This document shows positions 4,932 through 39,241 of a stretch of DNA of 39,294 bases, one piece after another. The notes beneath the pieces were generated by a model. It searched no databases. It saw only the letters and a list, made by a program, of their open reading frames with translations, and had not been told where the DNA came from. The translations under genes were made by a program, and so were the position numbers. Position 1 is the first letter of the stretch; each line of letters opens with the position of its first letter. Source of the DNA: Candidatus Bathyarchaeota archaeon (GTDB lineage: Archaea; Thermoproteota; Bathyarchaeia; 40CM-2-53-6; RBG-13-38-9); contig JAGTRD010000016.1 in assembly GCA_018396915.1 (NCBI GenBank), positions 457 through 39,750 on the forward strand, in the 5' to 3' direction.

Positions 4932-5594
4932 TTGAGTCAGACCGATATGGCGCTTGAGAATCTACGTAAACAGATTATTGAACTCAATGTTGAAGAGTCT
5001 CGAAAAGCTGCAAGGGAAGCTGTAGGATCCGGAGTACCTGTCGAGTCCATCCTCAACAAGGGTGTTGGCCTCGCGTTGGAAGAGGTTAGCAGAAGATACG
5101 ATAGAGGAGAGTATTTTCTGAGTGAACTTGTTATGGCCGGTGAAGTCGTTAATGAAGTCTTATCGGAGGTTCTGCCCCTCATAAGAAAGGGTGAAGACGA
5201 AACGGCATCCATTGAGAAAGGGACAGTGGTTATAGGGACTGTTCATGGTGACTTACATGACATTGGAAAGAACATAGTATCTACATTCATGTCTGCTTTG
5301 GGGTTGAGGGTGATAGATCTTGGGGTGGATGTTCCTCCTGAACGGTTTATAGAGGAGGTTAAGAGGAGCAGGGCTCAGGTAATGGGTTTATCATGCCTGT
5401 TGACCACAACCCTTCCAGCGATGAAGAGGACGATAGAGGCTCTGCAAGAGTCTGGTTTGCGTCCAGCTGTTAAGGTGATAGTTGGGGGGAGGCCGGTCAC
5501 AGAGACGCTGGCCAAAGAGTTGGGTGCTGACGCCTACGGACACGATGCACCTGACGGTGCAAGGAAAGCTTTGAGGCTCATAGGGAGAGAGTAG
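4932..5594 (+). CDS. Corrinoid (methyl-B12) protein of a methyltransferase system, copy 1
   Basis: 220-residue two-domain corrinoid carrier of the MtmC/MtbC/MttC/MtgC type. Residues ~5-90 form the helical cap domain (B12-binding_2 fold, with EEVSRRYDRGEYFLSELVMAGE). Residues ~95-220 form the Rossmann B12-binding domain with the base-off/His-on signature D107-L-H109-D-I-G112. The second nucleotide-loop motif (GLSCLLTTT) and the GGRPV glycine motif are also present. The protein carries a methyl group on cobalt between a substrate-specific methyltransferase and an acceptor enzyme. TTG 4932 is chosen because a GGAG site lies 7 nt upstream; ATG 4947 is an alternative. It is 15 bp upstream of the UroD-like gene and is similar to, but clearly diverged from, the second corrinoid protein at 8244. 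Confidence 0.9.
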   Translation: MSQTDMALENLRKQIIELNVEESRKAAREAVGSGVPVESILNKGVGLALEEVSRRYDRGEYFLSELVMAGEVVNEVLSEVLPLIRKGEDETASIEKGTVVIGTVHGDLHDIGKNIVSTFMSALGLRVIDLGVDVPPERFIEEVKRSRAQVMGLSCLLTTTLPAMKRTIEALQESGLRPAVKVIVGGRPVTETLAKELGADAYGHDAPDGARKALRLIGRE

Positions 5595-5609
5595 GCTGTG
5601 TGAAACATT

Positions 5610-6650
5610 ATGGTCAGCCAAGAATTTGCACAGATAAATAGAGAGAGAATGTTAAGAGCCATAGATCATGAGGAGCCTGACCGACCACCTGTTGCATTGA
5701 TGGTGAACGCGCCCTTCTTCTCAAGTTACGCCAACATCCCAGTGAAGGAGTATTATACAGATCCCAGGAAGATGTTGAGGGCCCAGCTGACTGTGAGGGA
5801 GAGGTTCTACAACCTCACGCCAATATGGGCTGATGGCGGTGTAGCTGTTGAGCCTTCAGCATTGGGCGGGGAGATTTACTGGGATACAGCCGGAAATCCC
5901 CAGGTGAAACCTTTCATCAAAGACCTTGAAGATATAGATAGGCTCGAGACTCCCGATCCTTCAAGTGACGGCTGGATGCCTAAACAACTCGAAACATACA
6001 GGTACATGATCGAAAACGTTGGGAAAGATGTTAAAGTCGATTTCGGCTATCTAGTCATCGGCCCCACAACGATCGCAGGCATGATCAGGGGTATGAGCAA
6101 ATTCTTGATAGACCTCTTCAAACATCCAGAAGCCGCCCGTAAACTCTTGAGAGTATGCACAGATACCGCGAAGGTATGGGTGAGGGCCCAAGAGGAGGTT
6201 GTGGGTGAGACAGACTATGGAGTATTCATCGCAGACGACGCGGCCTCATTCTTAACTCCAAAACAGTTTGAGGATTTCATTGCGCCATTATACAGGGAGA
6301 TATATGAGGTCTTTCCAAATTGTAGGCGGTGGTACCATAACGATATGAAGTCGACACATATACTGAAGCAACTGGCAGATTCTGGTGTCGAGGTATTCCA
6401 CATAGCCTACGATGTTGATCTCCCAGCGGCAAAAGAGATCGTTGGGGAGAGGATCTGTTTCGTCGGGAATATTCCTCCTCTTGAAGTTCTCAAGGAGGGC
6501 AATTTACATACAGTCAGGGAGGCTTGCGCGACCCTTATTCGAAATATGGCCGAAGGTGGAGGATTTATACTCTCGACGGGCGGATTCATAAACGCTGGGA
6601 CCCCTGCGGAGAACATTGATGCGATGATCGAATCTGTGGAGTCACCATAG
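5610..6650 (+). CDS. UroD-fold methylcobamide methyltransferase-like protein lacking the usual zinc cysteines
   Basis: 346 residues of the uroporphyrinogen decarboxylase superfamily, which includes the CoM methyltransferases MtaA and MtbA and substrate enzymes such as CmuA and MtvB. The N-terminus (NRERMLRAIDHEEPDRPPVA) is classic for the non-heme branch, and the gene sits between a corrinoid protein and an MttB homologue. MtaA/MtbA bind the zinc that activates coenzyme M through a His-x-Cys pair and a later Cys. Here the corresponding sites read H243-N-D245 and LSTGGFINAGTP (321-332), so both cysteines are missing. By inference it is not a standard CoM methyltransferase: it may use another acceptor or act on a methylated substrate. 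True heme UroD is unlikely from context. Confidence 0.85.
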   Translation: MVSQEFAQINRERMLRAIDHEEPDRPPVALMVNAPFFSSYANIPVKEYYTDPRKMLRAQLTVRERFYNLTPIWADGGVAVEPSALGGEIYWDTAGNPQVKPFIKDLEDIDRLETPDPSSDGWMPKQLETYRYMIENVGKDVKVDFGYLVIGPTTIAGMIRGMSKFLIDLFKHPEAARKLLRVCTDTAKVWVRAQEEVVGETDYGVFIADDAASFLTPKQFEDFIAPLYREIYEVFPNCRRWYHNDMKSTHILKQLADSGVEVFHIAYDVDLPAAKEIVGERICFVGNIPPLEVLKEGNLHTVREACATLIRNMAEGGGFILSTGGFINAGTPAENIDAMIESVESP

Positions 6651-6694
6651 AAACTTCAATTTCAAGACACAAAATGCGTCAAACATTAGAGTTG

Positions 6695-6714
6695 GAAACA
6701 TGTAAATATGTTTC
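6695..6714 (+). other. Perfect 7-bp hairpin in the gap before the mttB homologue
   Basis: GAAACAT (6695-6701) and ATGTTTC (6708-6714) are exact inverted repeats around a 6-nt loop. It lies about 45 bp after the UroD-like stop and upstream of the TATA-like sequences for the next gene. It could be a processing or termination structure, or an operator. Confidence 0.4.
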
Positions 6715-6754
6715 AGCGTGAGGAAGTTTTGAAATCATTACTTCGAATTATGAA

Positions 6755-6790
6755 ATGAAATATTAAATACGGATCGACGTTAAATATATT
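6755..6790 (+). promoter_or_regulatory. AT-rich promoter region of the mttB homologue
   Basis: Two TATA-like stretches lie here, AAATATTAAATA (about 6757-6768) and TTAAATATATT (about 6780-6790), 13-46 bp before the ATG at 6803. The upstream box would give a start of transcription about 10 bp before the ATG, that is, a nearly leaderless mRNA. It suggests the mttB/second-corrinoid pair can be transcribed independently of the first half of the cluster. Confidence 0.45.
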
Positions 6791-6802
6791 GAATGACAGA
6801 TC

Positions 6803-8233
6803 ATGAAGCCTATTCTTGAATTTCTCTCAAGTGACGAGGTGTATATGATACATCAGGCTTCTCTTGAGATTCTTGAGAGGGTGGGTGTAAAGTTTGAGAG
6901 TAAGGAGGCCCAGCAGACTCTCAAGAGTGTAGGGGTTGACGTCGATGGGGATGGTGTTGCAAGGTTCCATCCAGATACTGTTGAAGAGTATGTTAAGAAG
7001 GCACCTAGATCGGTTGTCTTGAGAGCTAGAGATCCCAAACAGGATGTATACCTCAGAGACGGTCGTGTCGTCTTCTCTTCTGGAACAGGAATGTATGTTG
7101 TGGAGGGTAAATCTGCTAGAAAGTCAACATATCAGGACTGTTGTAACTGGGCGAGACTATGCGACGCAATAAAGAATGTTGATTTCTCAGCTGAGATACA
7201 TTCTACAGACGTCCCGCTGGAACTCACCGACAGATACAATTTCAAAGCTATGGCTACGAATACAACGAAGCCATTCATTGGAAGCTCACTCTCAAGGGCT
7301 GGTGTCCTCGATGAGATAGAGATGGCTGCAGCTATAGCTGGCGGGAAGGAGGAGTTGAGGAAGAGATCGCAGTGGTGGACTGCATACTGCGCCATCAGCC
7401 CCCTAACATGGAGCGAGAACGCATGCACAGTCTTCAAGGAGACCGCGCCATACAATATCCCAGTCTTCGTTGAGGGCGAGTCGGTCATAGGTGGGACATC
7501 ACCTGTGACTGTTGTTGCAACCCTGGCTCAGACCAACGCCGAAGCCCTAAGCGGAATAGTCTACAACCAGATCCTGAAGAAGGGAAGGCCGTGCGTGTTC
7601 AACATAGGTTTCAGCCACCCGATGGATATGAAGACATGCCTCGCACTACACGGCAACATCGTCGCTGGAATAGTAGGCGCTGGTGGAGCACAGATCGCGA
7701 GATTCTACGGTTTACCTTCCGCATCATGGATGGCTACCGACTCCAAAATCTCAGATGCCCAGTGCGGTTACGAGAAGGCTCTGACAGGCATTATTCCAGC
7801 ATTGGCAAGGGCAAACATCATATGGGGTATGGGCCAAGCCGAGTTCACATACGCCGTAGACTTCGAGAAACTGGTTATAGACGACGAGATCGTAACTCAG
7901 ATGAAGAGGGCCCTCGACGGAATAGAAGTCAACGAGGAGACTTTATGTTTAGAAGCGATTGAAAGAGTAGGTATCGGAGGAAGCTTCCTAACATCCAAAG
8001 CAAAAGATACTTTCAAGCATATCCAGAAAGAGACTACTGAACTCACCGTAGGTGACAGGAACACTAGGGAGAAGTGGCTGGCCTCAGGAGGAAGAAGCAT
8101 AAGTGAAAAAGCTAGAGAGAAGGTGGAGGAGATCCTTGAAACACATGAACCTGAACCGCTGGACAGAGACATTGTTAAGAGGCTGGACGAGATCATAGAG
8201 AATGCTAAGAGAAATCTAGCGAAGAAATCATAG
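6803..8233 (+). CDS. MttB-superfamily (trimethylamine methyltransferase-like) protein, non-pyrrolysine type
   Basis: 476 residues spanning the whole COG5598/MttB family. The start is typical (LEFLSSDEVYMIHQASLEIL then VGVKFESKEA), and the TIM-barrel landmarks SGTGMYVV, ISPLTW and ATDSKISDAQCGYEKA are visible. The reading frame has no internal TAG, so this is the pyrrolysine-lacking branch. Characterised members such as MtgB (glycine betaine), MtpB (proline betaine) and MtcB (carnitine) move a methyl group from a quaternary amine to a partner corrinoid protein. The substrate here cannot be read from sequence. The partner is probably the corrinoid protein that starts 11 bp downstream. TATA-like boxes precede the gene. 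Confidence 0.92.
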   Translation: MKPILEFLSSDEVYMIHQASLEILERVGVKFESKEAQQTLKSVGVDVDGDGVARFHPDTVEEYVKKAPRSVVLRARDPKQDVYLRDGRVVFSSGTGMYVVEGKSARKSTYQDCCNWARLCDAIKNVDFSAEIHSTDVPLELTDRYNFKAMATNTTKPFIGSSLSRAGVLDEIEMAAAIAGGKEELRKRSQWWTAYCAISPLTWSENACTVFKETAPYNIPVFVEGESVIGGTSPVTVVATLAQTNAEALSGIVYNQILKKGRPCVFNIGFSHPMDMKTCLALHGNIVAGIVGAGGAQIARFYGLPSASWMATDSKISDAQCGYEKALTGIIPALARANIIWGMGQAEFTYAVDFEKLVIDDEIVTQMKRALDGIEVNEETLCLEAIERVGIGGSFLTSKAKDTFKHIQKETTELTVGDRNTREKWLASGGRSISEKAREKVEEILETHEPEPLDRDIVKRLDEIIENAKRNLAKKS

Positions 8234-13889: not shown

Positions 13890-14195
13890 CTATGTCTTTC
13901 TTAGGCTCCGTTTCAATGTTCCTGCCAGAACTATTATTCCCCATAGGTATATGGTTAATGTTAGAGCAATGGCTGATCTGGCTGTTCCTGCAAGCCAAGG
14001 TAGGTTCGCCATATTGCCGATCAGTTTGAATAGAATTATTAGAAACCACATGGTTCCAGCTGTTCCAAGTAGCCTCCATGCCAAGCCTCTCTTCTCACCG
14101 TAGGCGACCATCATGTAGAAGATTGAGCCGAAGAGGAAGCATGAGGCGACGACTGCGTCTATTAGAGGTTCGATGGGCTCCATAGTATTACTCAC
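13890..14195 (-). CDS. Small three-helix membrane protein of the hydrogenase locus
   Basis: 101 residues with three predicted membrane helices (about 12-31, 42-60, 72-93) and a basic C-terminus (KRSLRKT). It is not recognised as a known family. The stop of the similar-sized 97-aa gene lies 4 bp upstream, so the two are co-transcribed and may form a pair; together they would give six helices. Position at the end of the [NiFe]-hydrogenase/HdrB locus suggests a small membrane subunit or assembly partner. Confidence 0.65.
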   Translation of the reverse strand: MSNTMEPIEPLIDAVVASCFLFGSIFYMMVAYGEKRGLAWRLLGTAGTMWFLIILFKLIGNMANLPWLAGTARSAIALTLTIYLWGIIVLAGTLKRSLRKT

Positions 14196-14199
14196 TCAA

Positions 14200-14493
14200 C
14201 TACTCTTTATACGTCATTATTTCGTGGAGTTTGATTCCGCTTAATGCGAAGGCTACTGCCCCAGCCAGAATTAACATGTACTGTTCTATACGCTGGACTG
14301 TAGGGTCTACTGGGAAGATCATATCTACGAGTCCAAGCAACATCGCGAAGAACATGCAGAAGGATGTTATGCCCAAATATATCCATACTGGTGCGCCCCT
14401 TCTGACCTTAGCCATTATGTAGAGTGAGTATCCTATAGCGATCAGGGCCAGAGCGGCTCCAGCCAACTCAAAGACTGTAGACCAATCAATCAA
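14200..14493 (-). CDS. Small three-helix membrane protein of the hydrogenase locus
   Basis: 97 residues, three predicted membrane helices (about 5-27, 37-58, 72-88) joined by a basic cytoplasmic loop (KVRRGAP) and an acidic loop with DMIFPVD. Unrecognised family. It lies between the two-helix proteins with a shared N-terminal motif and the 101-aa protein, all on the same strand. An Asp-Met/Pro-Asp element in the second loop is the only charged feature near the membrane. Ion-translocation or anchor roles are possible but unproven. Confidence 0.65.
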   Translation of the reverse strand: MIDWSTVFELAGAALALIAIGYSLYIMAKVRRGAPVWIYLGITSFCMFFAMLLGLVDMIFPVDPTVQRIEQYMLILAGAVAFALSGIKLHEIMTYKE

Positions 14494-14559
14494 TCCTCAA
14501 CCACCCTGCTCAAGATTCAATATTAGCTTTGTAGGCATCTAAAAAACTTCCTGTTACGG

Positions 14560-14817
14560 TTAAGGGCTGAGTATGGCTATCGCTATTAGGACCCAGCCGA
14601 TATGTATCGTCAGAAGGATTGAGTATACTGTATACCATAATCTTGGATCCCCAGTCAACGCGTGGTTTATGATATACCAGTCGAAGACTGTTATGATTGC
14701 GAGGGTCGCCGCCATGAATATTCTGGCTCGCATATGCCATTTTCTAGAGACTTCTGGTTGGGCCTCCTCGCCACCGATGAAGACTTCGCTTTCACGCCTC
14801 TTCTTGAACAGCCTCAC
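14560..14817 (-). CDS. Small two-helix membrane protein with N-terminal KRRExEVFxGGE motif
   Basis: 85 residues. A cytoplasmic N-terminal segment has KRRESEVFIGGE (residues 6-17). A basic patch and two membrane helices (about 33-52 and 63-83) follow. The 90-aa protein upstream at 15036-15308 has nearly the same motif (KKRELEVFAGGE) but a different remainder. The shared motif suggests both dock on the same partner, presumably the hydrogenase complex. A minus-strand TATA-like stretch lies in the 218-bp upstream gap near 14880, so it may have its own promoter. Confidence 0.65.
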   Translation of the reverse strand: MRLFKKRRESEVFIGGEEAQPEVSRKWHMRARIFMAATLAIITVFDWYIINHALTGDPRLWYTVYSILLTIHIGWVLIAIAILSP

Positions 14818-15035
14818 GGCCTATCACATCCAACCTCCAATTTACGTAGGTAACCAATCATCAGCTAGGTATCCTGAATTTTATTATAAGGAATAAATAG
14901 GATCAATATAAGATATGCAGGTTGCCTGCTCGACCAGGGATCCTTTAAACTCTTCAGATATGATGAAATGCCTTGTCGATGGGCAATGATCTCTTCAATA
15001 TTTGATTCCTGACGATTTTAGTTGTTTGAAGATGA

Positions 15036-15308
15036 CTATTTTATGATGGTTAGCAGTATCTTTATGATGAGGCCTGCCAGAAATATTGTTACGGCTGTTG
15101 ACAGTTCGACGCCTCTGTAATGGAGTGTCGCTGCAAGTATAGTGGCCCCTGCAAGTATGATGGATCCAACGATCTCCCTGCTCACCCCTTTGAATACGCT
15201 CATCGGCCTATCTTTTGATGTGTCGACCCTCACACCGGCAGTCGCTGGTCCTGTCTCTCCCCCTGCGAATACTTCAAGTTCTCTCTTCTTCTCAAGTGTT
15301 TCCGACAA
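15036..15308 (-). CDS. Small two-helix membrane protein with N-terminal KKRExEVFxGGE motif
   Basis: 90 residues. The N-terminus holds KKRELEVFAGGE (residues 7-18), followed by a polar linker with a Lys/Asp/Arg cluster and two closely spaced helices (about 46-63 and 72-89) ending in IIK. No family was recognised. It follows the [NiFe] small-subunit gene by about 107 bp on the same strand, with an AT-rich box near 15370-15380 that could drive it separately. It is a candidate accessory membrane subunit. Confidence 0.65.
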   Translation of the reverse strand: MSETLEKKRELEVFAGGETGPATAGVRVDTSKDRPMSVFKGVSREIVGSIILAGATILAATLHYRGVELSTAVTIFLAGLIIKILLTIIK

Positions 15309-15415: not shown

Positions 15416-15847
15416 TTACTTGAGTCTCTTCAACAGTTTGTTTAGGCCATCTATCAGAGCCTCTGGTCTCGGTGGGCATCCTGGAACATATATGTCGACA
15501 GGTAGGACCTCATCTAGGGGGCCTGCGAATCCGTAGCCTTCCCTGAATATGTCTCCGTCGACAGCGCATGAGCCGAAGGCGACGATATGCTTCGGGTTCG
15601 GTGTGAGATCATATATTCTCTTAAGTCTATCCAATATTTGGGCTGTAACCACTCCTGTGACGATGAGTATATCTGCATGTCTGGGGGTGCCTTTCTGGAG
15701 TACGCCGAACCTCTCGACGTCAAATTTCGGTGTCAGAGCTGCGACGACTTCTATGTCGCATCCGTTGCATCCTCCGCATGGAACATGCATTATCCAAGGT
15801 GATTTCCTCCTTGCGAATGAGCGGAGAGCCTTCAACATCCGTGTCAC
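15416..15847 (-). CDS. Group-4 [NiFe]-hydrogenase small subunit (EchC/NuoB-like)
   Basis: 143 residues, the short single-domain small subunit of membrane-bound hydrogenases. Ligands for the proximal [4Fe-4S] cluster are visible: C24 and C27 in CGGCNGCDIE, C94 in FGSCA, and C124 in PGCPPRPE. The CNGCDIE wording is typical of Ech/Hyc/Mbh subunits. It passes electrons between the [NiFe] site and the ferredoxin-like subunit. Its start overlaps the stop of the ferredoxin subunit gene by 4 bp, so the two are translationally coupled. It is the last of the tightly packed core genes. Confidence 0.92.
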   Translation of the reverse strand: MTRMLKALRSFARRKSPWIMHVPCGGCNGCDIEVVAALTPKFDVERFGVLQKGTPRHADILIVTGVVTAQILDRLKRIYDLTPNPKHIVAFGSCAVDGDIFREGYGFAGPLDEVLPVDIYVPGCPPRPEALIDGLNKLLKRLK

Positions 15848-16386
15848 CTGAGCCTCCTCATGAACATTCTCCTCTCAGGCATCTCATCGACTGTGAATGA
15901 GCATGTTGGGCAGAGTTGGATCAGTTTAGCCAACTCCTCCTTTCCTATCCCATATTTTCTGAGGGTCTCCTCAACCTTCTGGAGTGATGCTTCCATCTGA
16001 GGTTTTGGGATGAATGGTCTCCCACAATGAGCACATTCGAGGAGGGGTATATCGATGCTTGTCTTTGCCTCACTCTTATCATATACTGCCAACTCGTACT
16101 TCTTGGTCAGATGTATCGCACCCCAGGGGCAGACCTCTTCGCATCGTCCGCAGAATGAGCAGAGGCCGTAATCCACCTGGAGCCTCCTGAACTTCTCTGA
16201 ATCTTCGTATGTGATCGCTCCTGTTGGACATACTTGGGAGCATGCGCCGCATCCTACACATTTGTCTGGGTCATATTCAGCGGCACCCCTGAACCCTTCC
16301 TGGGGGATGTATGGTCTCCTCGGGTAGAGGGTTGTTGAAGGGCTGACTAGGCTCCTGAGAGCATCCATTATGATATGTCTCTTCAC
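15844..16386 (-). CDS. Hydrogenase ferredoxin subunit (EchF/HycF/NuoI-like) with extra CxxC tail
   Basis: About 180 residues from GTG 16386, which overlaps the preceding stop as GTGA; ATG 16368 is an alternative. Two [4Fe-4S] binding motifs are present (CVGCGACSQVCP and CSFCGRCEEVCP). A C-terminal extension carries two more CxxC pairs (CAHCGRP and CPTC), a likely zinc-ribbon or rubredoxin-like site as in HycF-type subunits. It would be the entry point for electrons from soluble ferredoxin. An in-frame extension to 16524 exists but runs into the NuoH-like gene and has no family resemblance. Confidence 0.9.
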   Translation of the reverse strand: MKRHIIMDALRSLVSPSTTLYPRRPYIPQEGFRGAAEYDPDKCVGCGACSQVCPTGAITYEDSEKFRRLQVDYGLCSFCGRCEEVCPWGAIHLTKKYELAVYDKSEAKTSIDIPLLECAHCGRPFIPKPQMEASLQKVEETLRKYGIGKEELAKLIQLCPTCSFTVDEMPERRMFMRRLR

Positions 16387-17297
16387 GGCCAGATCAGGCT
16401 CCTCACGAAATCTATGAGTGCTAGTGGAAGGATCCATTTGAAGAAGAACCTGAATCCTTGATCTATCCTGTAACGTGGATGGATTATGTCGAGGACCGAT
16501 AGGAAAAGCACTACTCCTAAACATTTCGCTAGAAACTCAATAGGATTCGCGGCTCCACCGAAGAACATGTTCACAGTGAATGCTGGTATGACAAACCATT
16601 TCAGGCCGTTGGCAACCTCGAATAGTCCTAGCAACAGTCCTGAATACTCGGTTAAGGGGCCGCCTATGATCTCGGTGTCTGCCTCTGGAGCGTCGAACGG
16701 ACGCCGCCCCATCTTCGGTAGGAGGCACATAAGGAAAGCTAAAGTCGCCAATGGATACTTCATGAAGAAAGCGCCGCTCTCAAGTTGGTAACTCACTATT
16801 CTCGAGATGCTGAGGGACCTCAAATGGAAGCCCACAGTCAACGCTGAGAGGACATAGGGCAACTCGTACCCAACCATTATGCTCGCCTCACGGCTTGAAC
16901 CAACAGATCCGTAAGGTGATCCTGAGACGTTGCCGGCGATGATCATGGCGAGGCCTGGAATAGCCAGAAGATACAGTGTTACGATGAGGTCCTCGTCGAA
17001 TCCAAATATTGATTCTGAACCAACCGGCATCATCGCAGCTACCAAGACGAGACTCGTCAGGGAGAAGATCGGGGCAAGAACCATAGCTGCTCCTCTTGAA
17101 GAGTATGGTATAACCGACTCCTTCGAGAAGAGTTTTATGAGGTCCATGAAGTATTGGTACCATGGAGGGCCGATTCTTGCTTGGAGTCTCGCCCGAACCT
17201 TACGGTATAGCCAGTAGAATACTCCGCCTATGGCAAGGGAGAAGGCAAGTCCAGGATATATTAGTAGGCCTACCATCAGGTTGATAACCTCAATCAT
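16383..17297 (-). CDS. Hydrogenase membrane anchor subunit (EchB/HycD/NuoH-like)
   Basis: 304 residues with about eight membrane helices. Family blocks include RKVRARLQARIGPPWYQYF near the N-terminus (the quinone-pocket/NuoH signature region), GSSREASIMVGYELP, and RRPFDAPEADTEI with the conserved acidic residues. In Ech and Mbh this subunit anchors the [NiFe] module in the membrane and is part of the proton path. It overlaps its neighbours by 4 bp on each side. It is the only large integral-membrane subunit seen in the cluster. Confidence 0.92.
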   Translation of the reverse strand: MIEVINLMVGLLIYPGLAFSLAIGGVFYWLYRKVRARLQARIGPPWYQYFMDLIKLFSKESVIPYSSRGAAMVLAPIFSLTSLVLVAAMMPVGSESIFGFDEDLIVTLYLLAIPGLAMIIAGNVSGSPYGSVGSSREASIMVGYELPYVLSALTVGFHLRSLSISRIVSYQLESGAFFMKYPLATLAFLMCLLPKMGRRPFDAPEADTEIIGGPLTEYSGLLLGLFEVANGLKWFVIPAFTVNMFFGGAANPIEFLAKCLGVVLFLSVLDIIHPRYRIDQGFRFFFKWILPLALIDFVRSLIWP

Positions 17298-18448
17298 TTG
17301 ATCCTCCCCCTTCTCAAATCTGAGAAGCTATATGTTTTCTCAATATTCTTTCCAGTATCCAAGACAGTGACCCTGTCAGTGCAGGAGAAGCATGGGTCTA
17401 TGCTCGCCAGTATTATTGGAACATCGGCTATAGTCTCCCCAACAACCATTGGAAGGATCGAGTTATTATTCACAACTGACGGTGTTCTGACCTTAACCCT
17501 CTCTGGGAAGTTTGTTCCGTTCGACCTCAAATAATATACCAGCTCACCCCTGTGGGCCTCAACCCTCCCGAAGGCCTCACCAACCGTTGGTAAAGGTAGA
17601 GATTCAGATGCTACCGGACCTTTCGGTAGCTTGGCAGTAGCTTGTCTTATTATCTTCACCGACTCCGTCAGCTCTTTGAGTCTGACAAGTGTTCTTGAGA
17701 GTACGTCTCCACCTTCTTCAACAGGTACATCGAAATCGATGTTTTGGTAGGCTGCGTAAGGGTCGTCCCTCCTAGTATCTATGTCTACGCCTGAGCCTCT
17801 TGCTGTAGGCCCAACGACGCAGAGCCTCCTAGCCTCGTCCTTAGAAAGCACACCTACACCTTTCACCCTAGCCTCCAAGACCTTGTCTTCAACCAGTATC
17901 TTCCCAATCTTTCCTATGGTCCTCTCCAAAATGTCGAGCTTTGTCTTTATGAGCCTCTGCTTCTCAGGTGTTATGTCTCTTCTTACACCTCCGATGGTGT
18001 TTATCCCAAAGTTCACCCTCTTCCCACAGATCGACTCCAAGATTTCTAAGGCATGTTCCCGCTCCCTCCACATGTACATGTATGCTGTATCGTAGCCTAT
18101 CTCATGCATTCCCACACCGAACCATAATAGGTGGCTCTGGATCCTCTCAGCTTCGAAGACTATTGTCCTGATGTATTTCGCCCTCTCAGGTGGGTCTATA
18201 CCCATCAGGGCCTCAACTGTCTGTGTGTAACATGTGGAGTGGACTGTGTTGCATATTCCACATACCCTCTCAAACAGGAATATGTTGCTGTGGTATGTCT
18301 TCCTCGTAGCCAACTCTTCTATGCCTCTATGCATATATCCAACCTTGAAGTCTCCTCCTACAACCCTCTCGCCATCAACCTCGAGTTTGATGTAGGCAGC
18401 TTCCTTCAGGGCTGGGTGGAATGGACCTATCGGCAGAATCGATGACAT
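17294..18448 (-). CDS. Group-4 [NiFe]-hydrogenase large (catalytic) subunit
   Basis: 384 residues. Both pairs of nickel ligands are intact: C63-G-I-C66 in the L1 motif (ERVCGICNTVH) and C353-F-S-C356 in the L2 motif (DPCFSCTDR). Complex I NuoD homologues lack these, so this should be a true hydrogenase rather than an Fpo/Nuo-type subunit. DPCxSCTDR is the form found in Ech, Mbh and Hyc enzymes. It starts MSSILPIGPFHPAL, a typical HycE/EchE start. It catalyses H+/H2 interconversion. Gene order NuoC-like, HdrB-like, large, NuoH-like, ferredoxin, small is unusual because of the inserted HdrB-like gene. Confidence 0.93.
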   Translation of the reverse strand: MSSILPIGPFHPALKEAAYIKLEVDGERVVGGDFKVGYMHRGIEELATRKTYHSNIFLFERVCGICNTVHSTCYTQTVEALMGIDPPERAKYIRTIVFEAERIQSHLLWFGVGMHEIGYDTAYMYMWREREHALEILESICGKRVNFGINTIGGVRRDITPEKQRLIKTKLDILERTIGKIGKILVEDKVLEARVKGVGVLSKDEARRLCVVGPTARGSGVDIDTRRDDPYAAYQNIDFDVPVEEGGDVLSRTLVRLKELTESVKIIRQATAKLPKGPVASESLPLPTVGEAFGRVEAHRGELVYYLRSNGTNFPERVKVRTPSVVNNNSILPMVVGETIADVPIILASIDPCFSCTDRVTVLDTGKNIEKTYSFSDLRRGRIK

Positions 18449-18455
18449 ATCTAGA

Positions 18456-19343
18456 TCACAGTTTCGATATTATGTTTGCTGTTGGGCCCCTATGCGTCTT
18501 GAGCCCGAACTCGTCGGGGCCGATCCCTATACCTAGGGCGACGAGTTCAATCACATGGATGACTGGGAGGCCTGAGTCGAAGGCTATGTTATATCTCCTC
18601 TTCAATTCGAGTTGTCCGAACTCAAACTGGATGTTGCATGCTGGACATGCGACTACGACACAGTCTGCACCGGCCTCCCACATCCTCTGCAACTTTCTAG
18701 CCAGCATCATCTTGAGTGAGAACTCCTCCTCTACAACCCTGTGTGGGTATCCGCAGCAGAACCTCTTGATCCCATACTCAACCTCCTTCGCGCCAGTAGC
18801 CTCAACTATCTCCTCAAGCATCCTGGGCTTCTCTCTAGTAGCCTCTCTGCTGTCTGCCCTGTAAAGGTGGCAGCCTGGATGGATGGCGACGCTCAGTCGA
18901 CTCAGCCTGTTTCCACTCAGCCTCCTTATCTCGTCTACACCTATATCTCGGCCCAGAACCTCAACTATGTGGTTCAGACCTATTTTTGAAGGAAGTGTTC
19001 TGCCGATCCTGGAGAGGGCCTTCTCAACTCTGGACCTCAACATCTCATCTGTTCTGAGACTCTCCTTCGCCTCGAAGAGGGTCTCGTAGCATCCGTTACA
19101 AACCGTAACCAGGTCCTTACCCATATCCTCCGCTATCGAGAGGTTTCTAGCAGCCATTGTGAGCCACATCTCACGTTGCAGCCTCTCCGTAACTACTGGG
19201 TCTGGACAGCATGAGGCTCCCTCCATATCCTCTATGCCTATTCCAAACCTCTCCATGACCATTCTGCAAGCTGCCTCGACACTGGGCTGCCTCGCGGGCA
19301 CCCAGCAACCCCAGAACATAGCATACTCTTTCCCGTAGCCCAA
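18456..19343 (-). CDS. HdrB-like CCG-domain protein embedded in a hydrogenase operon
   Basis: 295 residues with two complete CCG-type cysteine sets: C13, C45-C46, C82 and C85, then C158, C196-C197, C233 and C236. These are the ligands that hold the two non-cubane [4Fe-4S] clusters in heterodisulfide reductase subunit B, where CoM-S-S-CoB or analogous disulfides are reduced. It starts at TTG 19343, giving the typical N-terminus (AMFWGCW). It lies 7 bp upstream of the [NiFe] large subunit and 3 bp after the NuoC-like gene, so it should be part of the complex. No HdrA or separate HdrC gene is in the window. Confidence 0.9.
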   Translation of the reverse strand: MGYGKEYAMFWGCWVPARQPSVEAACRMVMERFGIGIEDMEGASCCPDPVVTERLQREMWLTMAARNLSIAEDMGKDLVTVCNGCYETLFEAKESLRTDEMLRSRVEKALSRIGRTLPSKIGLNHIVEVLGRDIGVDEIRRLSGNRLSRLSVAIHPGCHLYRADSREATREKPRMLEEIVEATGAKEVEYGIKRFCCGYPHRVVEEEFSLKMMLARKLQRMWEAGADCVVVACPACNIQFEFGQLELKRRYNIAFDSGLPVIHVIELVALGIGIGPDEFGLKTHRGPTANIISKL

Positions 19344-19346
19344 GGC

Positions 19347-20009
19347 TCAGTACCTCAGCTTCATCTTCTGGAGGTCGTATCCGACCCTCTTGTCGAATCC
19401 AACTTCTCTAGCGATCTCATGTATCTCCTTCAGAGCTTCAGGCCTATTCATGGTTGTTTTAACCTCAGGGAGCTTCAGACTCTGCCTGTGACTCTTGACG
19501 GTGGCGGGCATTGTGAAGACCTGGCCTTGCTGCATGAGGGTCTCAACTGTCGGCTTCTGATACTCTGCAACTATCCCAGATGCAGGCTTCCTCAGGGGGG
19601 TCTTCACCCCACTCCATTCATGTGGTACTATTAACGGTCTGGGGTCTGGTAAACCTTGAAATTTTATGTTGAAGAGGTCGTGTATCTCCCTCTCAGCCGA
19701 GGTTGCTCCTGGAATTATGCTTGAGACTGATGGGACTTCAGATATCTCCTTTGGAGTAGAGGTTTTGACGTTGAATATTAGGCCTCCTAGACTCATATGG
19801 TAGATGAGTTCGAAGTCCAACCCTAAGTCGACGGCTGTTATGGTGCATAGTCTTGCGTTGAAACGTTCCACAAGCAGCCTCACCGTCTGGATCAGGTAAT
19901 CCCTATCGACTGTAACTGTCGGTCTGTTCGGCTTCATCCTAGACTCAGAAATGAAGCCTACACCGATCTCTTCCATCAACGCCTTAACAATCTCTTTATC
20001 CAGACTCAA
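19347..20009 (-). CDS. NuoC/EchD-like (30-kDa) hydrogenase subunit
   Basis: 220 residues. The core signature SAEREIHDLFNIKFQGLPDP matches the complex-I 30-kDa family, followed by the Leu-Ile-Val-Pro-His-Glu-Trp element. The C-terminal ~70 residues (from ATVKSHRQSLKLPEV) lie outside the family core and end with a basic tail. It starts at TTG 20009. It structurally links the large and small subunits. It follows a 23-codon open frame and a hairpin, described separately. Confidence 0.85.
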   Translation of the reverse strand: MSLDKEIVKALMEEIGVGFISESRMKPNRPTVTVDRDYLIQTVRLLVERFNARLCTITAVDLGLDFELIYHMSLGGLIFNVKTSTPKEISEVPSVSSIIPGATSAEREIHDLFNIKFQGLPDPRPLIVPHEWSGVKTPLRKPASGIVAEYQKPTVETLMQQGQVFTMPATVKSHRQSLKLPEVKTTMNRPEALKEIHEIAREVGFDKRVGYDLQKMKLRY

Positions 20010-20013
20010 CTAC

Positions 20014-20085
20014 TCAACCCTCATGTAGAAGCCTATTCAAGCCGAGTCTCAAGTATGATTTCATATCGCGACCCCTCAACTTCAT
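20014..20085 (-). CDS. Possible 23-aa micropeptide upstream of the NuoC-like gene
   Basis: The minus strand from ATG 20085 reads a short basic, amphipathic peptide (MKLRGRDMKSYLRLGLNRLL then HEG) and stops at 20014, five bases before the NuoC-like TTG start. The DMKSYLRLGLNRLL part resembles the leading helix of ferredoxin-type complex subunits. It might be a translational leader, a remnant or chance. It sits directly after a strong hairpin. Confidence 0.3.
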   Translation of the reverse strand: MKLRGRDMKSYLRLGLNRLLHEG

Positions 20086-20107
20086 AATTGCCCTTTGATA
20101 GGCAATT
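20086..20107 (-). other. 7-bp hairpin between the polyferredoxin and NuoC-like genes
   Basis: AATTGCC (20086-20092) and GGCAATT (20101-20107) are exact inverted repeats with an 8-nt loop. It lies immediately before ATG 20085 of the short open frame and 12 bp after the polyferredoxin stop. It could mark mRNA processing or attenuation inside the operon. Confidence 0.4.
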
Positions 20108-20118
20108 CATGTTCAGAT

Positions 20119-20592
20119 TCATCCCCTCTTACCGTAGATATCCTCCAGCAGCCTCTCCGCCTCCTTTCTCGTCACATAACTTATAGCCATTGGTGAACAG
20201 TACTTTACACATTCGGGGTCTCCGTCGCATAGGTTGCATTTCATCGAGACCTTCATTTCAGGATAGAACTTTGGAATTCTTGCTGGGCAGACCATGTTGC
20301 ATGTCTGGCAGCCGATACATTCCATAATGTTTATGCGTACTATGCCTGTCTCCTCATCCTTATGTATCGCCTTGACGGGGCATGAGGCGGCGCATAGGGG
20401 CTCCTCACAGTGCTGGCAGTATTGACATTCGATCTCTCCCCTATCGAACTCTATAACATGTCTTATATGGGTCTTCTCGTAACTGTATATGTTGTTGAAG
20501 TTCTTGAATGAGCATGCCAACTCGCAGAGCCTGCAACCGGTGCAGACACGCCTGTCGAAGACCAGGATCTTCTGTTCAGCAACCTCGACCAA
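20119..20592 (-). CDS. Four-cluster polyferredoxin (HycB/CooF/DmsB-like)
   Basis: 157 residues with 16 clustered cysteines in four [4Fe-4S] motifs: CTGCRLCELAC, then CQYCQHCEEPLCAASCP, then CIGCQTCNMVCP, then CNLCDGDPECVKYC. This is the layout of HycB/CooF/DmsB electron-transfer subunits, where cluster I pairs with cluster IV and II with III. It starts at TTG 20592. It is the first gene of the hydrogenase locus on this strand, about 110 bp before the NuoC-like gene. It likely passes electrons to or from the complex; the redox partner (for example a formate or aldehyde oxidoreductase) is not in the window. Confidence 0.88.
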   Translation of the reverse strand: MVEVAEQKILVFDRRVCTGCRLCELACSFKNFNNIYSYEKTHIRHVIEFDRGEIECQYCQHCEEPLCAASCPVKAIHKDEETGIVRINIMECIGCQTCNMVCPARIPKFYPEMKVSMKCNLCDGDPECVKYCSPMAISYVTRKEAERLLEDIYGKRG

Positions 20593-34256: not shown

Positions 34257-35264
34257 TTGGGTTATTGGTGGCGTAGAACAATAAACATACTGACCCTCGG
34301 ATTAGCCTACCGAAGATACTCAAACTGTTTCTGCATAAAATGTGGAAAACTAGTCAGCAATAGACATAGAGAGAATAAAAATCGTAGAGACCATCGAATA
34401 GTCGCCTTCGGATGGATGAAGGACCCAGAAGATCCAAGAGACCTACTATGGAGGAGAATCTTCAAACCACCACCCAAAATACCTGAGAAGACAGACCTAA
34501 CCCACCACGCAGGAAAGATCAGAGATCAGGGAAACGAAGGAAGCTGCGTAGGCCAAGCAGGAGCAGCCCTCAAAGACTGGTATGAGAAGTATCAGAGAGG
34601 ATACCCTGAAGGAGGACTCTCATCAAGATGCATATACAATCTGGCAAGGGCACTCGAAGGTAGGTTGAAAGATGAGGGCGCATACCTCAGAGACGCCCTC
34701 AAAGGGCTACAGCACTACGGAACATGCGGGGAGAAGCGGTGGCCCTACAGGCCTGGAGTAGACACAGACAAAGACCCGAGAACACACATAGCAGCCCAAG
34801 AGATGCAGCCATGGCAGATCGAATCATACGTGAGAATAAACAAGGTCGAGGAGATACTTCAAGCCCTAGCAGCAGGCAGACCAGTCTATGCAGGTGTACC
34901 ATGGTACAGAAACTGGATCACACCAGGGTTAGATGGAAAGTTACCTATGCCTGAGGGGCCGCCGGTTGGAGGCCACGCAATACTATTCCTAGGATACAAT
35001 CGAACTGAAGATTGGCTCCTATTCCAGAACAGTTGGGGCAGACTCTGGGGTAAAGCAGGATACGGAAAGATGCCCATCAAAGCCCTACGTCAAATAGAGG
35101 GTGAATGCGACTTCTGGACAGTCATAGACAAGCAAGGCCCAGGACCGGGACCTGGACCTGAGCCTGAACCAGCCGAACCTGAATGGATGAAGATCATAAA
35201 GAAGATCCTGAAGCTCCTCGAGCAACTCCAGAAGACTGTGGAGAACCTGAAGAAACATGCATAA
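34257..35264 (+). CDS. Papain-like (C1-family) cysteine peptidase with coiled-coil tail
   Basis: 335 residues from TTG 34257. The N-terminus has a Cys-rich knuckle (CFCIKC at 24-29) and a basic stretch. The peptidase domain runs about 75-290. The oxyanion Q91 and nucleophile C97 are in RDQGNEGSCVG, the general-base H240 is in GGHAILFLGY, and N258 is in FQNSWGRLWG. A Gly-Pro/Glu-Pro linker (294-308) and a C-terminal coiled coil (KILKLLEQLQKTVENLKK) follow. Placed among virion packaging genes, it may process structural proteins or attack the host envelope. It overlaps the next gene by 8 bp. Confidence 0.85.
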   Translation: MGYWWRRTINILTLGLAYRRYSNCFCIKCGKLVSNRHRENKNRRDHRIVAFGWMKDPEDPRDLLWRRIFKPPPKIPEKTDLTHHAGKIRDQGNEGSCVGQAGAALKDWYEKYQRGYPEGGLSSRCIYNLARALEGRLKDEGAYLRDALKGLQHYGTCGEKRWPYRPGVDTDKDPRTHIAAQEMQPWQIESYVRINKVEEILQALAAGRPVYAGVPWYRNWITPGLDGKLPMPEGPPVGGHAILFLGYNRTEDWLLFQNSWGRLWGKAGYGKMPIKALRQIEGECDFWTVIDKQGPGPGPGPEPEPAEPEWMKIIKKILKLLEQLQKTVENLKKHA

Positions 35265-35655
35265 ATGGTTCGGAATCACCCTAACACTCACAATAACATT
35301 CATAACCATCCAGGTTTGCGGTCAACTCGGAATATTCACCGGAGGCTCAAACGCCTACACTGCAATATCTAGTTTCGACATCTACACACACGCCCTAGGA
35401 TCAGCCGCCCTAGGCGCATTCATGCTCACCACCATAAGTCTAGGAAGATATGACAGGTCATGGCGAGTCTGGATACCATTCCAAGTAGCAATAATAGGAA
35501 CCATATGGGAACTCGTCGAGTTGACAGTAACATGGCTCAGGCTCTTACCGCCACAACAGATGTGGGCCACAGTTGAAAACTCAGTCCAAGACATATTCAT
35601 AGACTTCCTAGGAGTCTGCACAGTATCCTTCCTATATGAGCTGAGTGAAGCCTGA
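35257..35655 (+). CDS. Small membrane protein of the provirus
   Basis: 132 residues with about four hydrophobic segments (near 6-22, 45-62, 73-92, 115-130). It contains FDIYTHALGSAALGAF, IWELVELT and NSVQDIFIDFLGV. The His, Glu and Asp residues in membrane-facing positions are reminiscent of YjdF/DUF2238-type proteins, but this is a weak resemblance. It overlaps the peptidase gene, so a joint role (lysis or envelope) is possible. Confidence 0.6.
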   Translation: MHKWFGITLTLTITFITIQVCGQLGIFTGGSNAYTAISSFDIYTHALGSAALGAFMLTTISLGRYDRSWRVWIPFQVAIIGTIWELVELTVTWLRLLPPQQMWATVENSVQDIFIDFLGVCTVSFLYELSEA

Positions 35656-35660
35656 TTGAA

Positions 35661-36542
35661 ATGAACATCATACCTTATGTTGGTGGAAAAACTTTCCTGT
35701 TAAAAAATCTCCTACCCTTGATCCCCCCACATGAAATTTATGTCGAGGTCTTCGGCGGTGGAGCTGCCCTCCTATTGAATAAGGCACCAAGCAAATATGA
35801 GGTTTACAACGATGTTGACAGCGAGCTTGTAAACCTATTCCTAACAATCAGAGATGACCCCGAAAGATTCAGGTTTAGGCTTGAAGGCATACCCTACAGT
35901 AGAGAGATTTTTCATAGATGGAGTAGAGAGTTCAAGACAGGTAATCTTCCGGAGGACAATTTGGAGAGGGCTGTGAGATTCTACTATGTGATCTCAAGCA
36001 GCGTCTCCGGAAAGTTTGGGCAAGGATGGAGTTTCGGCAGGTCAGGGAGAATGTGGAGGCGCCAGACCATGCTGAGTAGGCCATTCGAGGAAATCCATAA
36101 CAGGCTCCTCAACGTCACAATCGACCATTTAGACTTCAGAAAATGTATAGTAAACTGGGACTCAGATGAGACTTTCTTCTTCCTGGACCCACCATACTAC
36201 GGGGTTAAGGGTCGCATGTACAGGTTCGGATTCTCAGAGAGTGACCATGAGGACCTTGCTGAAATGTTGAGGGCGACGAGGGGCAAATGGCTTCTGACAT
36301 ATGGGGACCACCCACACATAAGAAGACTCTACAGAGGATACTTGATGAGAAAAGTCGGGTCATACGCCTATGCTGAGAGGATGAGTCGCAGGGAAGGATT
36401 GAGGCGTAGGGGAATCGTCAAGCACCTCCTAATAATGAATTACAAGCCTCCAACAGCGATTGGGAAGACTCCTCTGAAAGGCTTCAAACCGGTTATGCTC
36501 TTCGACTTCGACCTCAAGATTGCGGCGGAGGATATTGATTAG
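35661..36542 (+). CDS. Dam-type DNA adenine-N6 methyltransferase
   Basis: 293 residues of the D12 class. The AdoMet-binding FGGG loop (motif I) is EVFGGGAALLLNK, the catalytic DPPY motif (IV) is LDPPYYG, and motif X near the N-terminus is MNIIPYVGGKTFLL. No cognate restriction gene is seen, so it is a solitary viral methylase that may protect the genome from host restriction. The recognition site cannot be read from sequence. Confidence 0.9.
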   Translation: MNIIPYVGGKTFLLKNLLPLIPPHEIYVEVFGGGAALLLNKAPSKYEVYNDVDSELVNLFLTIRDDPERFRFRLEGIPYSREIFHRWSREFKTGNLPEDNLERAVRFYYVISSSVSGKFGQGWSFGRSGRMWRRQTMLSRPFEEIHNRLLNVTIDHLDFRKCIVNWDSDETFFFLDPPYYGVKGRMYRFGFSESDHEDLAEMLRATRGKWLLTYGDHPHIRRLYRGYLMRKVGSYAYAERMSRREGLRRRGIVKHLLIMNYKPPTAIGKTPLKGFKPVMLFDFDLKIAAEDID

Positions 36543-36544
36543 GA

Positions 36545-36949
36545 TTGATATGTGAGAAGCCTCCGGCATGTGAGGATTGCAGCCGGATATGGGTCAAGTT
36601 GAGGAAGCTAAGAAGGGGAGACCTGGTTGAGTGTCTATGGCTCGACTCATGCCTATTCAGAAGGGTCAGATACCTCACAAGAAGCGTATATAGGACGGAG
36701 AAGAAGACTGTGGGCTACTTCCACTCAATCAAAGAAGATGAATATCTGATCCTGATCAATGAGTTGACCGACGGAGAGACATATCTCGAAGGAAACTCGC
36801 TGCTCATACGTGGAATAATAGAGTTGACTGTGAGGGTTCCAGCATCAAAGTCAGGCTACCATAAAACCCCTAAGAAAACCGTGAAGAACAATCAGACCCA
36901 GACAATGAAGATCATACAGACGATCGAGAAGGTAGCCCTCCCAAATTGA
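36545..36949 (+). CDS. Hypothetical protein of the provirus
   Basis: 134 residues from TTG 36545, 2 bp after the methylase stop. It has a CxxC (CEDC, residues 9-12) near the N-terminus and a basic C-terminal tail. Mainly beta in character in the middle (SLLIRGIIELTVRVP). No family recognised. It overlaps the next gene by 4 bp. Confidence 0.6.
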   Translation: MICEKPPACEDCSRIWVKLRKLRRGDLVECLWLDSCLFRRVRYLTRSVYRTEKKTVGYFHSIKEDEYLILINELTDGETYLEGNSLLIRGIIELTVRVPASKSGYHKTPKKTVKNNQTQTMKIIQTIEKVALPN

Positions 36950-37248
36950 GGAATATGTTAAACAGGCTCATCAGAATGTTTGAGGGCCTCCTATCGGAGA
37001 CCGTGATAAAACCATACAGATACGGTGTGAAGGTTGGGAAGAGAGCGAGGAAGACCCAGATACCTCCGCCTAGAATGGTCGTATATGGGATCCTGGCGGC
37101 GATAACCTTCTTCGTAGGCCTAACAGCCATCGAGTTGGCACATATAATCGTCTTGAGGAGTGTAGAGCCTACAGCTCTTAACCTGATGGGCTACATAGTG
37201 ACATTCCTATTGGGAACATTATTTGGAGTAAAGAGCAGAAGCAGGTGA
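36946..37248 (+). CDS. Two-helix membrane protein (holin-like candidate)
   Basis: 100 residues from TTG 36946 (ATG 36955 is in frame). A basic amphipathic N-terminus (KVGKRARKTQ) is followed by two membrane helices (about 44-64 and 77-94) and a short basic tail (KSRSR). Its size and topology fit a class II holin, but no family is recognised and the order could equally suit a virion membrane protein. Confidence 0.5.
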   Translation: MRNMLNRLIRMFEGLLSETVIKPYRYGVKVGKRARKTQIPPPRMVVYGILAAITFFVGLTAIELAHIIVLRSVEPTALNLMGYIVTFLLGTLFGVKSRSR

Positions 37249-37254
37249 AGACCC

Positions 37255-37806
37255 TTGCCTGGGAGAGTATCGAAGAAACTTCTCTGCGATCTATGCCACT
37301 CCATAATCGACGAGAGATCAGCCTTGAACATTCCAGTCGATATTGGAGAGACCGAAACGAGGATAGTCGTCTGCAAAGAATGTTTGAAGCGGAGCCGGCG
37401 AGCCCCATCCAAGTATATCAAAAAGAGTTACAAGGAGGAGGTTTCAGGTCATGAGGACCTGAAAGATATTCAGTGCATGGTGAGCTTTGTTAGAAACTTA
37501 ATTTCTGAACCTGAGAAATCAGATTTGAAGCATCCAATCAACATTGAGGAGGTTAGAAGCAAGGCTGTAGAGGAGATATTGTCTGCCATGGCAGTCGTCG
37601 AGGAGCTGGCCAAGAACGCCCCAATGGAGGCTGAGAGAAACAAAACCGACACAACGAAAGCGAGGTACTACAGCCTCCTAGGATACTTGGTCCAAGTCTT
37701 AGACGGCGTATTGAAGAGTGTCGAGGCAAACGACTTGGACAACAGGTTGAAGACTGTTGAGGCACTCTTGAATGATTTCGCGAAGGCAAAGGTTAAGAAG
37801 GGTTGA
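37255..37806 (+). CDS. Zinc-finger helical protein upstream of terminase (small-terminase candidate)
   Basis: 183 residues from TTG 37255. The N-terminus carries a four-Cys zinc site (CDLC at 11-14 and CKEC at 40-43). The rest is helical, with an amphipathic repeat region (about 90-180). It overlaps the start of the large terminase gene by 35 bp. Position and size fit a small terminase subunit, but no HTH is visible and the assignment is inferred. Confidence 0.55.
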   Translation: MPGRVSKKLLCDLCHSIIDERSALNIPVDIGETETRIVVCKECLKRSRRAPSKYIKKSYKEEVSGHEDLKDIQCMVSFVRNLISEPEKSDLKHPINIEEVRSKAVEEILSAMAVVEELAKNAPMEAERNKTDTTKARYYSLLGYLVQVLDGVLKSVEANDLDNRLKTVEALLNDFAKAKVKKG

Positions 37807-39241
37807 GGAGAAGGTTCAGAGGCTCCTCGAATCCAGATACATTGGGTCCCAACTCAATATTCCTACAGACCCGATTGAGTTCGCAGATAAAATATTAAAG
37901 TTCAAACCTGCACCATACCAAGCCAAGATATTGGCTGACAAGTCGAAGAGGATCGCTGTCAGAATATGCAGGCAAGGCGGAAAGACAACAGTCATAGCCG
38001 CCAGAGCCATATGGTTCGCAGTGAACAATCCTAAGACAACAACCCTCATAATCGCACCATCCCAGAGACAGTCGATAAACATGATGGATGTGATCCAAAG
38101 CTTCATCTACAATATGGATGAAGATTTTAGAAGGAATATTCTGAGTAAGGCCCTCAGGACAACCGTATATTTCAGAAACGGAAGCAGAATCATAGCTCTA
38201 CCGAACAACCCTAGAACGGTGAGGGGGTACACAGCACACCAAGCCATAGTCGATGAGGCCAACTTCATAAAGGACGATGAGCTGCTCATCGACTCAACCT
38301 TGAGGCCGCAGCTTGGAACGACAGACGGCCCCATAATATTATGTTCGACACCATGGTCGATGAACAGCGTATTCTACCGAGCATTCGACCCAAACTCAGG
38401 ATACAGCAGACACATCGCAACTTGGAGGGAGGCTGTTCAGGCAGGTATACTGAAAGAGTCCTTCATGGTGGAGTTAATAGATGAAGTGAATGCAGGTCTA
38501 TACGACCGTAACAGGTTCATGCGTGAATATGAGGTTGAATTCGTAGAGGAGACGAACAACTACTTCCAGTCAGCCCTGATAACAAGATGCCAAGACGCAT
38601 ACCTAGAATATTACCGGTTCGACGAAGATGCCGAGGGCAGATTCTATATTGGAATAGACTTCGGCAAGAAAGCAGACCACTCAGCCGTAGCCGTCATAGA
38701 TTTGAAGGGCGACGAGAGGCGTCTAGTCCACCTACACAGATTCCCACTCGAGACACCATACACATCCGTCATAGGATATGTCAAGGCCATATGCGACAGG
38801 TACATGAGCGTTCAAGCAGTCTACCCAGACCAGACAGGTGTAGGCGAATATATTGTTGAGGAGATGGTGAACTCAGGAATATTACATGTCACAGGGATAA
38901 ACCTCACAGCACCGGTGAAGGAGGATATTCTAGGATTCCTCAAACACGGGCTGATGGAGGTATGTATCTGCCCCAAATGTAGACGTAGATACGACATAAA
39001 GGCCAGAACATGCCAAGAATGCGGGGAACAAGTCTCACCCCTACTCCACTACCCATACGACCCAGACCTCATAGCGGAACTGAATATTGAGAGGTACGAA
39101 TATACTAAGGATGGGAGGCTGAGGTTCAACCATCCGGAGGGGACACATGACGACATGCTATGGGCCCTAGCCCTAGCATGCTACGCAACCAGGGAGAGGC
39201 CTAGCAGACCAGAGACCCTACCGGTCACAAAGACATTCTAG
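37772..39241 (+). CDS. terL: Terminase large subunit with zinc-ribbon insertion
   Basis: 489 residues. The ATPase domain has the Walker A variant CRQGGKTT (67-74), Walker B IVDEAN (159-164) and the CSTP coupling motif (191-194). The RNase H-like nuclease has its three acidic sites at D296 (GIDFGKKADHSA), D353 (YPDQTG) and D461 (THDDML). Between the second and third acidic sites lies CICPKC...CQECGEQ (398-420), a four-Cys zinc ribbon. It packages viral DNA into capsids. This firmly marks the region as a tailed (Caudoviricetes) provirus. Start ATG 37772 overlaps the previous gene. Confidence 0.93.
   Translation: MISRRQRLRRVEEKVQRLLESRYIGSQLNIPTDPIEFADKILKFKPAPYQAKILADKSKRIAVRICRQGGKTTVIAARAIWFAVNNPKTTTLIIAPSQRQSINMMDVIQSFIYNMDEDFRRNILSKALRTTVYFRNGSRIIALPNNPRTVRGYTAHQAIVDEANFIKDDELLIDSTLRPQLGTTDGPIILCSTPWSMNSVFYRAFDPNSGYSRHIATWREAVQAGILKESFMVELIDEVNAGLYDRNRFMREYEVEFVEETNNYFQSALITRCQDAYLEYYRFDEDAEGRFYIGIDFGKKADHSAVAVIDLKGDERRLVHLHRFPLETPYTSVIGYVKAICDRYMSVQAVYPDQTGVGEYIVEEMVNSGILHVTGINLTAPVKEDILGFLKHGLMEVCICPKCRRRYDIKARTCQECGEQVSPLLHYPYDPDLIAELNIERYEYTKDGRLRFNHPEGTHDDMLWALALACYATRERPSRPETLPVTKTF

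Follow-up and report, generated by a model that had tools for sequence, protein, structure and literature searches.

An HdrB-linked group-4 [NiFe]-hydrogenase operon of a bathyarchaeon with an HdrC-derived arm on its NuoC subunit

Our analysis of a 39,294-nucleotide stretch of DNA from a Candidatus Bathyarchaeota archaeon (contig JAGTRD010000016.1 of assembly GCA_018396915.1; hereafter the window) suggested that it encodes an HdrB-interacting group-4 [NiFe]-hydrogenase. We consider it rather probable that this is a genuine, maturable enzyme, in which HdrB would be held on an arm of NuoC, and which would act as a reversible H2:dithiol/disulfide oxidoreductase. The operon comprises seven genes, identified by open reading frame (ORF) and family calls, on the minus strand between 15416 and 20592. 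From 20592 down to 15416 the order is HycB-like polyferredoxin, NuoC, HdrB, NuoD, NuoH, NuoI and NuoB. The features, in window coordinates, are as follows:

20119..20592, minus strand: HycB-like polyferredoxin with 16 cluster cysteines for four [4Fe-4S] clusters (Pfam Fer4_11/Fer4_7)
19347..20009, minus strand: NuoC-like subunit (residues 1-140; Complex1_30kDa, E 2e-22) continued by an HdrC C-terminal arm (residues ~141-220)
19347..19589, minus strand: the HdrC-derived arm of NuoC, with an invariant C-terminal LRY (profile against PDB, hhalign)
18456..19343, minus strand: HdrB, with two CCG domains and ten cysteines for two non-cubane clusters (TIGR03288, E 5e-83; 5odc_B, E 8e-72)
17294..18448, minus strand: NuoD/HycE-like [NiFe]-hydrogenase large subunit with CGIC and DPCFSC (PF00346, PF00374)
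16383..17297, minus strand: NuoH-like membrane subunit (PF00146, E 1.4e-70)
15844..16386, minus strand: NuoI/HycF-like 2x[4Fe-4S] subunit with a C-terminal CxxC...CxxC domain (Fer4; FHL HycF 7z0s_F covers residues 62-220)
15416..15847, minus strand: NuoB-like small subunit with the proximal [4Fe-4S] cluster (PF01058, E 4e-30; NF005012 above cut-off)
13890..15308, minus strand: four small proteins after NuoB, with 2, 2, 3 and 3 predicted membrane helices (hydropathy)

The first-pass annotation of this DNA had described a group-4 [NiFe]-hydrogenase operon with an embedded HdrB-like gene in a tightly spaced run, and this description held: all seven families could be called, and the synteny is conserved. 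NuoC and HdrB are separated by 3 bp and HdrB and NuoD by 7 bp, and there are 4-bp overlaps between NuoD and NuoH, between NuoI and NuoB and, if NuoI starts at the GTG at 16386, between NuoH and NuoI. The NuoI reading frame opens at 16524, and the N-termini of its homologues indicate that this GTG is the likely true start. HycB, the first gene of the conserved core, is set off by 109 bp upstream of NuoC, and its product matches the Fe-S subunits of AOR/WOR and FHL HycB (7z0s_B) in the PDB. The four nickel cysteines attributed to the large subunit were found in RVCGIC and DPCFSC; NuoD also carries a C-terminal extension of the cleavable type, and its best PDB matches are FHL HycE (4.9e-81) and Mbh (8.7e-81). 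HdrB also proved to be complete, with both CCG sets, as it aligns end to end with the Methanothermococcus HdrB (5odc_B) and keeps all ten ligating cysteines. ORF and family searches found neither HdrA nor a ferredoxin-type HdrC in the window operon. None of the four small membrane proteins had a confident Pfam match. Three of them (sm2-sm4) are retained after NuoB in genome G007 and two (sm3-sm4) in G006, and they are possible accessory proteins of the complex.

The altered NuoC gene sets this operon apart from a usual hydrogenase plus HdrB. The NCBIfam HdrC model gave a weak match to NuoC residues 144-208. In a NuoC search across 257 genomes of the class, the match reached the end of the protein, as in an arm-bearing NuoC, at 28 loci (27 genomes, 11 families of the class); the other NuoCs among the matches listed end near query residue 142, with a few exceptions that are slightly longer. 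A first profile of the arm (~80 residues) was built without any HdrC and run on 4,249 local ORFs. Its extra matches were only HdrC ferredoxin proteins and standalone arms of ~95 aa located beside HdrB, and hhalign of the arm with HdrC gave a probability of 98 and an E value of 1.5e-13. With two of the standalone arms added, the profile was searched against 177,635 PDB sequences at E values up to 10. Five matches were obtained, all of them HdrC and all at HdrC residues ~107-184, the best being 8rvu_c (1.8e-14) and 5odc_C (1.2e-12). Since the profile matches HdrC alone, NuoC bears the C-terminal segment of HdrC without the two ferredoxin clusters of that protein. We infer that this arm is the docking element for HdrB.

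The arrangement is strictly conserved. At every locus with neighbours on the contig, the gene for the arm-bearing NuoC follows that for HycB and is itself followed, in the same orientation, by those for HdrB and NuoD. Four genomes from outside the class (G262, G322, G449 and G558) likewise encode a NuoC with the arm, then HdrB and NuoD. Thus, the adjacency of the HdrB and large-subunit genes, which the first-pass annotation had proposed to check in relatives, is retained wherever the contig permits. Because the arm-bearing NuoC always precedes HdrB where the contig allows, HdrB is probably a conserved, docked subunit of the hydrogenase. The arm thus offers a sequence-level reason to regard HdrB as a physical subunit, where the earlier basis was gene neighbourhood. 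The unit of HdrB and hydrogenase with disulfide or thiol chemistry that had been proposed is strengthened by the synteny and by the HdrC arm, and the interpretation as a whole is partly supported. The sampled full-length arm-associated NuoDs all keep CGIC and DPCxxC. Separately, in L154 and L155 (f30 genomes) the HdrB-associated large subunits have DQCxxC replacing DPCxxC at the L2 nickel motif.

Where the contig suffices, the membrane form, with NuoH, NuoI and NuoB, was observed in the window family (f1), in G038 (f7) and in G322, G449 and G558. Nineteen other loci have a NuoB-NuoI fusion of about 300-330 aa directly after NuoD and no NuoH, and no membrane helix was predicted in the tested core proteins of these NuoH-less loci. 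They apparently encode a soluble form of the same core, a five-subunit enzyme. In the large-subunit tree, all the HdrB-associated NuoDs fall in one group (93/86), apart from 4g, HycE and Mbh, and the soluble-form NuoDs are a clade (100/100); note that in this tree the HycE, Mbh, Mbs and complex I references came from PDB alignments and have long branches, and the deep order is unsure. A gene for the HycI maturation peptidase is a frequent divergent neighbour of the relatives' operons. The membrane complex of the first-pass annotation therefore stands for the window lineage, where NuoH is present, but not for most relatives in the class, which are without it. The compact, apparently soluble version may lend itself to expression and assay, which would make the disulfide used by these non-methanogens directly testable. 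Three ORFs of 202-246 aa near soluble operons (L045 3454-4059, L101 5887-6492 and L095 460-1197) combine a ribbon-helix-helix-like start with a GcvH profile match and are apparent fusions of a DNA-binding and a lipoyl-type domain. In G007 (L039 7641-7877), a TusA sulfurtransferase gene lies beside IscU; it is on the strand opposite to the HycB ORF, at a distance of about 120 bp.

As annotated, there is no NuoL/M/N- or Mrp-like gene in the window operon. The assembly contains two PF00361 antiporter-family genes, both on contig C8, beside a HycI-like peptidase gene. A complete and separate Fpo-like operon (B, C, D, H, I, then L, M, N and HycI) is present in G005; G007 has the same antiporter end, and the C8 protein is a close match to its counterparts in G005 and G007. 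The idea that the C8 antiporters complete the window complex is thus weakened, since they match the NuoM/NuoN-HycI end of this separate operon. Pumping subunits encoded elsewhere, looked for as counter-evidence to an antiporter-less complex, hence belong to another operon type. The window NuoH is the single copy in the assembly; as C8 ends inside the Fpo-like operon, the NuoH of that operon may fall in an assembly gap. No dedicated antiporter for the HdrB complex is visible in the assembly.

These observations bear on whether the enzyme is an Ehd-like energy-conserving pump, in which H2/disulfide redox chemistry would be coupled to ion pumping via NuoH and an antiporter recruited in trans. We regard this as possible but doubtful. 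NuoH is retained, antiporter-like genes do exist at C8, and in G322, G449 and G558 an antiporter-like NuoL is encoded directly before NuoC, between it and HycB at the loci whose contig includes HycB, whereas the corresponding interval in the window is only 109 bp; in G006 an antiporter gene lies beside the operon on the other strand, and its NuoL resembles that of G322. However, besides the match of the C8 genes to the Fpo-like operon, G008 has no antiporter family match (its genome is 82% complete) and most relatives in the class are without even NuoH.

The ten cluster cysteines of both non-cubane sites were intact in every HdrB copy checked, and the protein is by far nearest to true HdrB (TIGR03288, 5odc_B). 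This argues against HdrB being no disulfide enzyme but simply an outlet that passes electrons to ferredoxin or some other redox protein. We consider the outlet unlikely, although some complexes without disulfide chemistry do use HdrB-like and CCG proteins (MFR SdhE and GlpC/GlcF, to which the match here is weaker) and the active-site loop departs from the canonical one, the window HdrB having CCGYPHRV where canonical HdrB has CCGAGGGVR. The hydrogenase-associated HdrBs have CCG[Y/F/V/L]..., many canonical HdrBs from HdrABC-type loci have the canonical loop, and in the HdrB tree the canonical HdrBs are a separate clade (100/99). Loop and clade point to a disulfide other than CoM-S-S-CoB. McrA is absent from the genome of the window (96% complete), and this absence, together with the differing loop, makes CoM-S-S-CoB a very improbable partner, in spite of the HdrB family match and of the role proposed for it in related complexes (PMC9723716). 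Finally, HdrB could have been a stray from an HdrABC system, placed in a hydrogenase operon by chance. This reading is refuted: canonical HdrABC does occur in relatives, but the HycB-NuoC-HdrB-NuoD synteny is kept in all examinable loci across many families, and NuoC bears the HdrC arm. Neither a misplaced gene nor an error of assembly would account for this. Note that the window, in this genome without McrA, also carries genes for a corrinoid protein and for URO-D-type and MttB-like methyltransferases (4932-8233).

With HdrB taken as a docked disulfide enzyme of the hydrogenase, our leading candidate for its partner is the lipoyl group of a GcvH-like protein. Near 12 HdrB-hydrogenase loci there are genes for GcvH-like lipoyl proteins whose lysine motif is intact; in three of these loci (L149, L150 and L151) the gene is immediately before HycB, and in G051 the lipoate ligase LplA is next to GcvH beside a soluble operon. 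GcvH has likewise been suggested as the partner for Ehe of Culexarchaeia (PMC9723716). The genome of the window has five GcvH, none of them adjoining the window operon, and GcvH does not adjoin the operon in the window's family either. We propose only tentatively that the hydrogenase, soluble or membrane-anchored, equilibrates H2 directly with dihydrolipoate/lipoate on GcvH-like carriers via the arm-docked HdrB; if true, archaea without methanogenesis would have in it a hydrogen valve for the oxidation of amino acids or one-carbon units. HdrB as a general substitute for a missing lipoamide dehydrogenase was rejected, since four of the ten genomes tested have the canonical enzyme; in the genome of the window, a sub-threshold dihydrolipoamide dehydrogenase homologue was found at C11. 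The same genome has three GcvH-like genes within 4 kb at C4:9544-13395 (L108), away from the glycine cleavage genes.

An active hydrogenase is expected, since the genome has the HypFCBAD gene order, with HypD found, and a HycI-like gene at C8, called by its position and by its match to sister operons (L054 8157-8678). In the reversible oxidoreductase that we favour, the HdrC arm transplanted onto NuoC would hold HdrB, while the HycB-like polyferredoxin would take the place of the ferredoxin domain of HdrC and is the probable wire between NuoI and HdrB. Electrons would run in either direction between the NiFe site of NuoD and the two non-cubane clusters in HdrB, by way of the NuoB cluster, the NuoI clusters and the HycB clusters, and would thereby interconvert H2/H+ with a disulfide/dithiol pair. 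In the window lineage, NuoH would serve as the anchor of the complex, with perhaps a weak coupling to an ion gradient, and in most relatives of the class the same core would work as the soluble five-subunit enzyme.

HdrB in an antiporter-less group-4 operon, which the first-pass annotation had implied to be new, has precedents. HdrB-interacting group-4 [NiFe]-hydrogenases have been published as Ehd (Methanomethylicia), Ehe (Culexarchaeia), Drh and Ehg (Nezhaarchaeia), of which Drh has no antiporter; Ehd-like clusters that include Bathyarchaeia sequences are also mentioned (PMC9723716), and an fpo-like operon with hdrB2 was noted in one bathyarchaeal family (PMC8407382). Ehd, Ehe and Ehg likewise cluster group-4 subunits with HdrB. 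By their published description, however, Ehd and Ehe have a separate HdrC-type protein and an ion antiporter subunit, neither of which is in the window operon; here NuoC itself bears the arm and is encoded apart from NuoD, and a NuoH-less form exists. Further local loci do match the Ehd/Ehe description, with a separate HdrC arm of ~100 aa, NuoK/NuoL, a fused NuoCD and GcvH. The short standalone arm of such operons matches the HdrC model, which probably explains the published label HdrBC. Drh of Methanocellales (PMC6046458, PMC9723716) also joins HdrB to a group-4 hydrogenase without an antiporter gene, but it belongs to a methanogen with CoM/CoB and is described as putatively membrane-associated.

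Formate hydrogenlyase (group 4a, 7z0s) shares the HycB polyferredoxin and a HycF-like NuoI with the C-terminal cysteine domain, and its HycE is one of the two best PDB matches for NuoD; here, in contrast, HdrB is found in place of formate dehydrogenase and there is no HycC-type antiporter. HdrABC-MvhADG shares HdrB and the C-terminal arm of HdrC, whereas the window operon has no HdrA, flavin bifurcation or HdrC ferredoxin domain, and its hydrogenase is of group 4 and not of group 3. Hfo (4g), the Fpo-like hydrogenase of Bathyarchaeia, is a group-4 relative, but it has eleven subunits with antiporters and no HdrB (PMC7886697); the complete Fpo-like set occurs separately in G005. In sHdr-LbpA sulfur oxidation a GcvH-like lipoyl protein acts with HdrB; GcvH is near related operons but not in the window operon. 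In the literature searched, we found neither a NuoC with an HdrC arm nor a variant lacking NuoH. Thus, while HdrB-linked group-4 hydrogenases are already known, neither the arm nor the soluble form seems to have been described.

Other loci of the genome and its relatives deserve mention. At the contig edge C22:1-1126 (L055), the assembly breaks off a second HdrB-hydrogenase operon, of the Ehd/Ehe-like type, with genes for HycB, a standalone HdrC arm of 93 aa and a truncated HdrB. In L048 84-3107, L047 9204-11835 and L152 11460-12655, Ehd/Ehe-like operons lie beside GcvH and a GlcD-type FAD oxidase and/or a GlcF-type CCG protein; such neighbours hint at a link between the HdrB complex and the oxidation of 2-hydroxyacids or other substrates. 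Contig C3 (L005 4822-15657) has a NuoB-C-D-I set without NuoH, near HoxE/NuoF/HoxU-like and pyruvate:ferredoxin oxidoreductase genes, and this is another group-4-like complex. Finally, a phage-like stretch at 34257-39241 of the window, with a DNA adenine methyltransferase and a terminase large subunit, is probably the end of a provirus.
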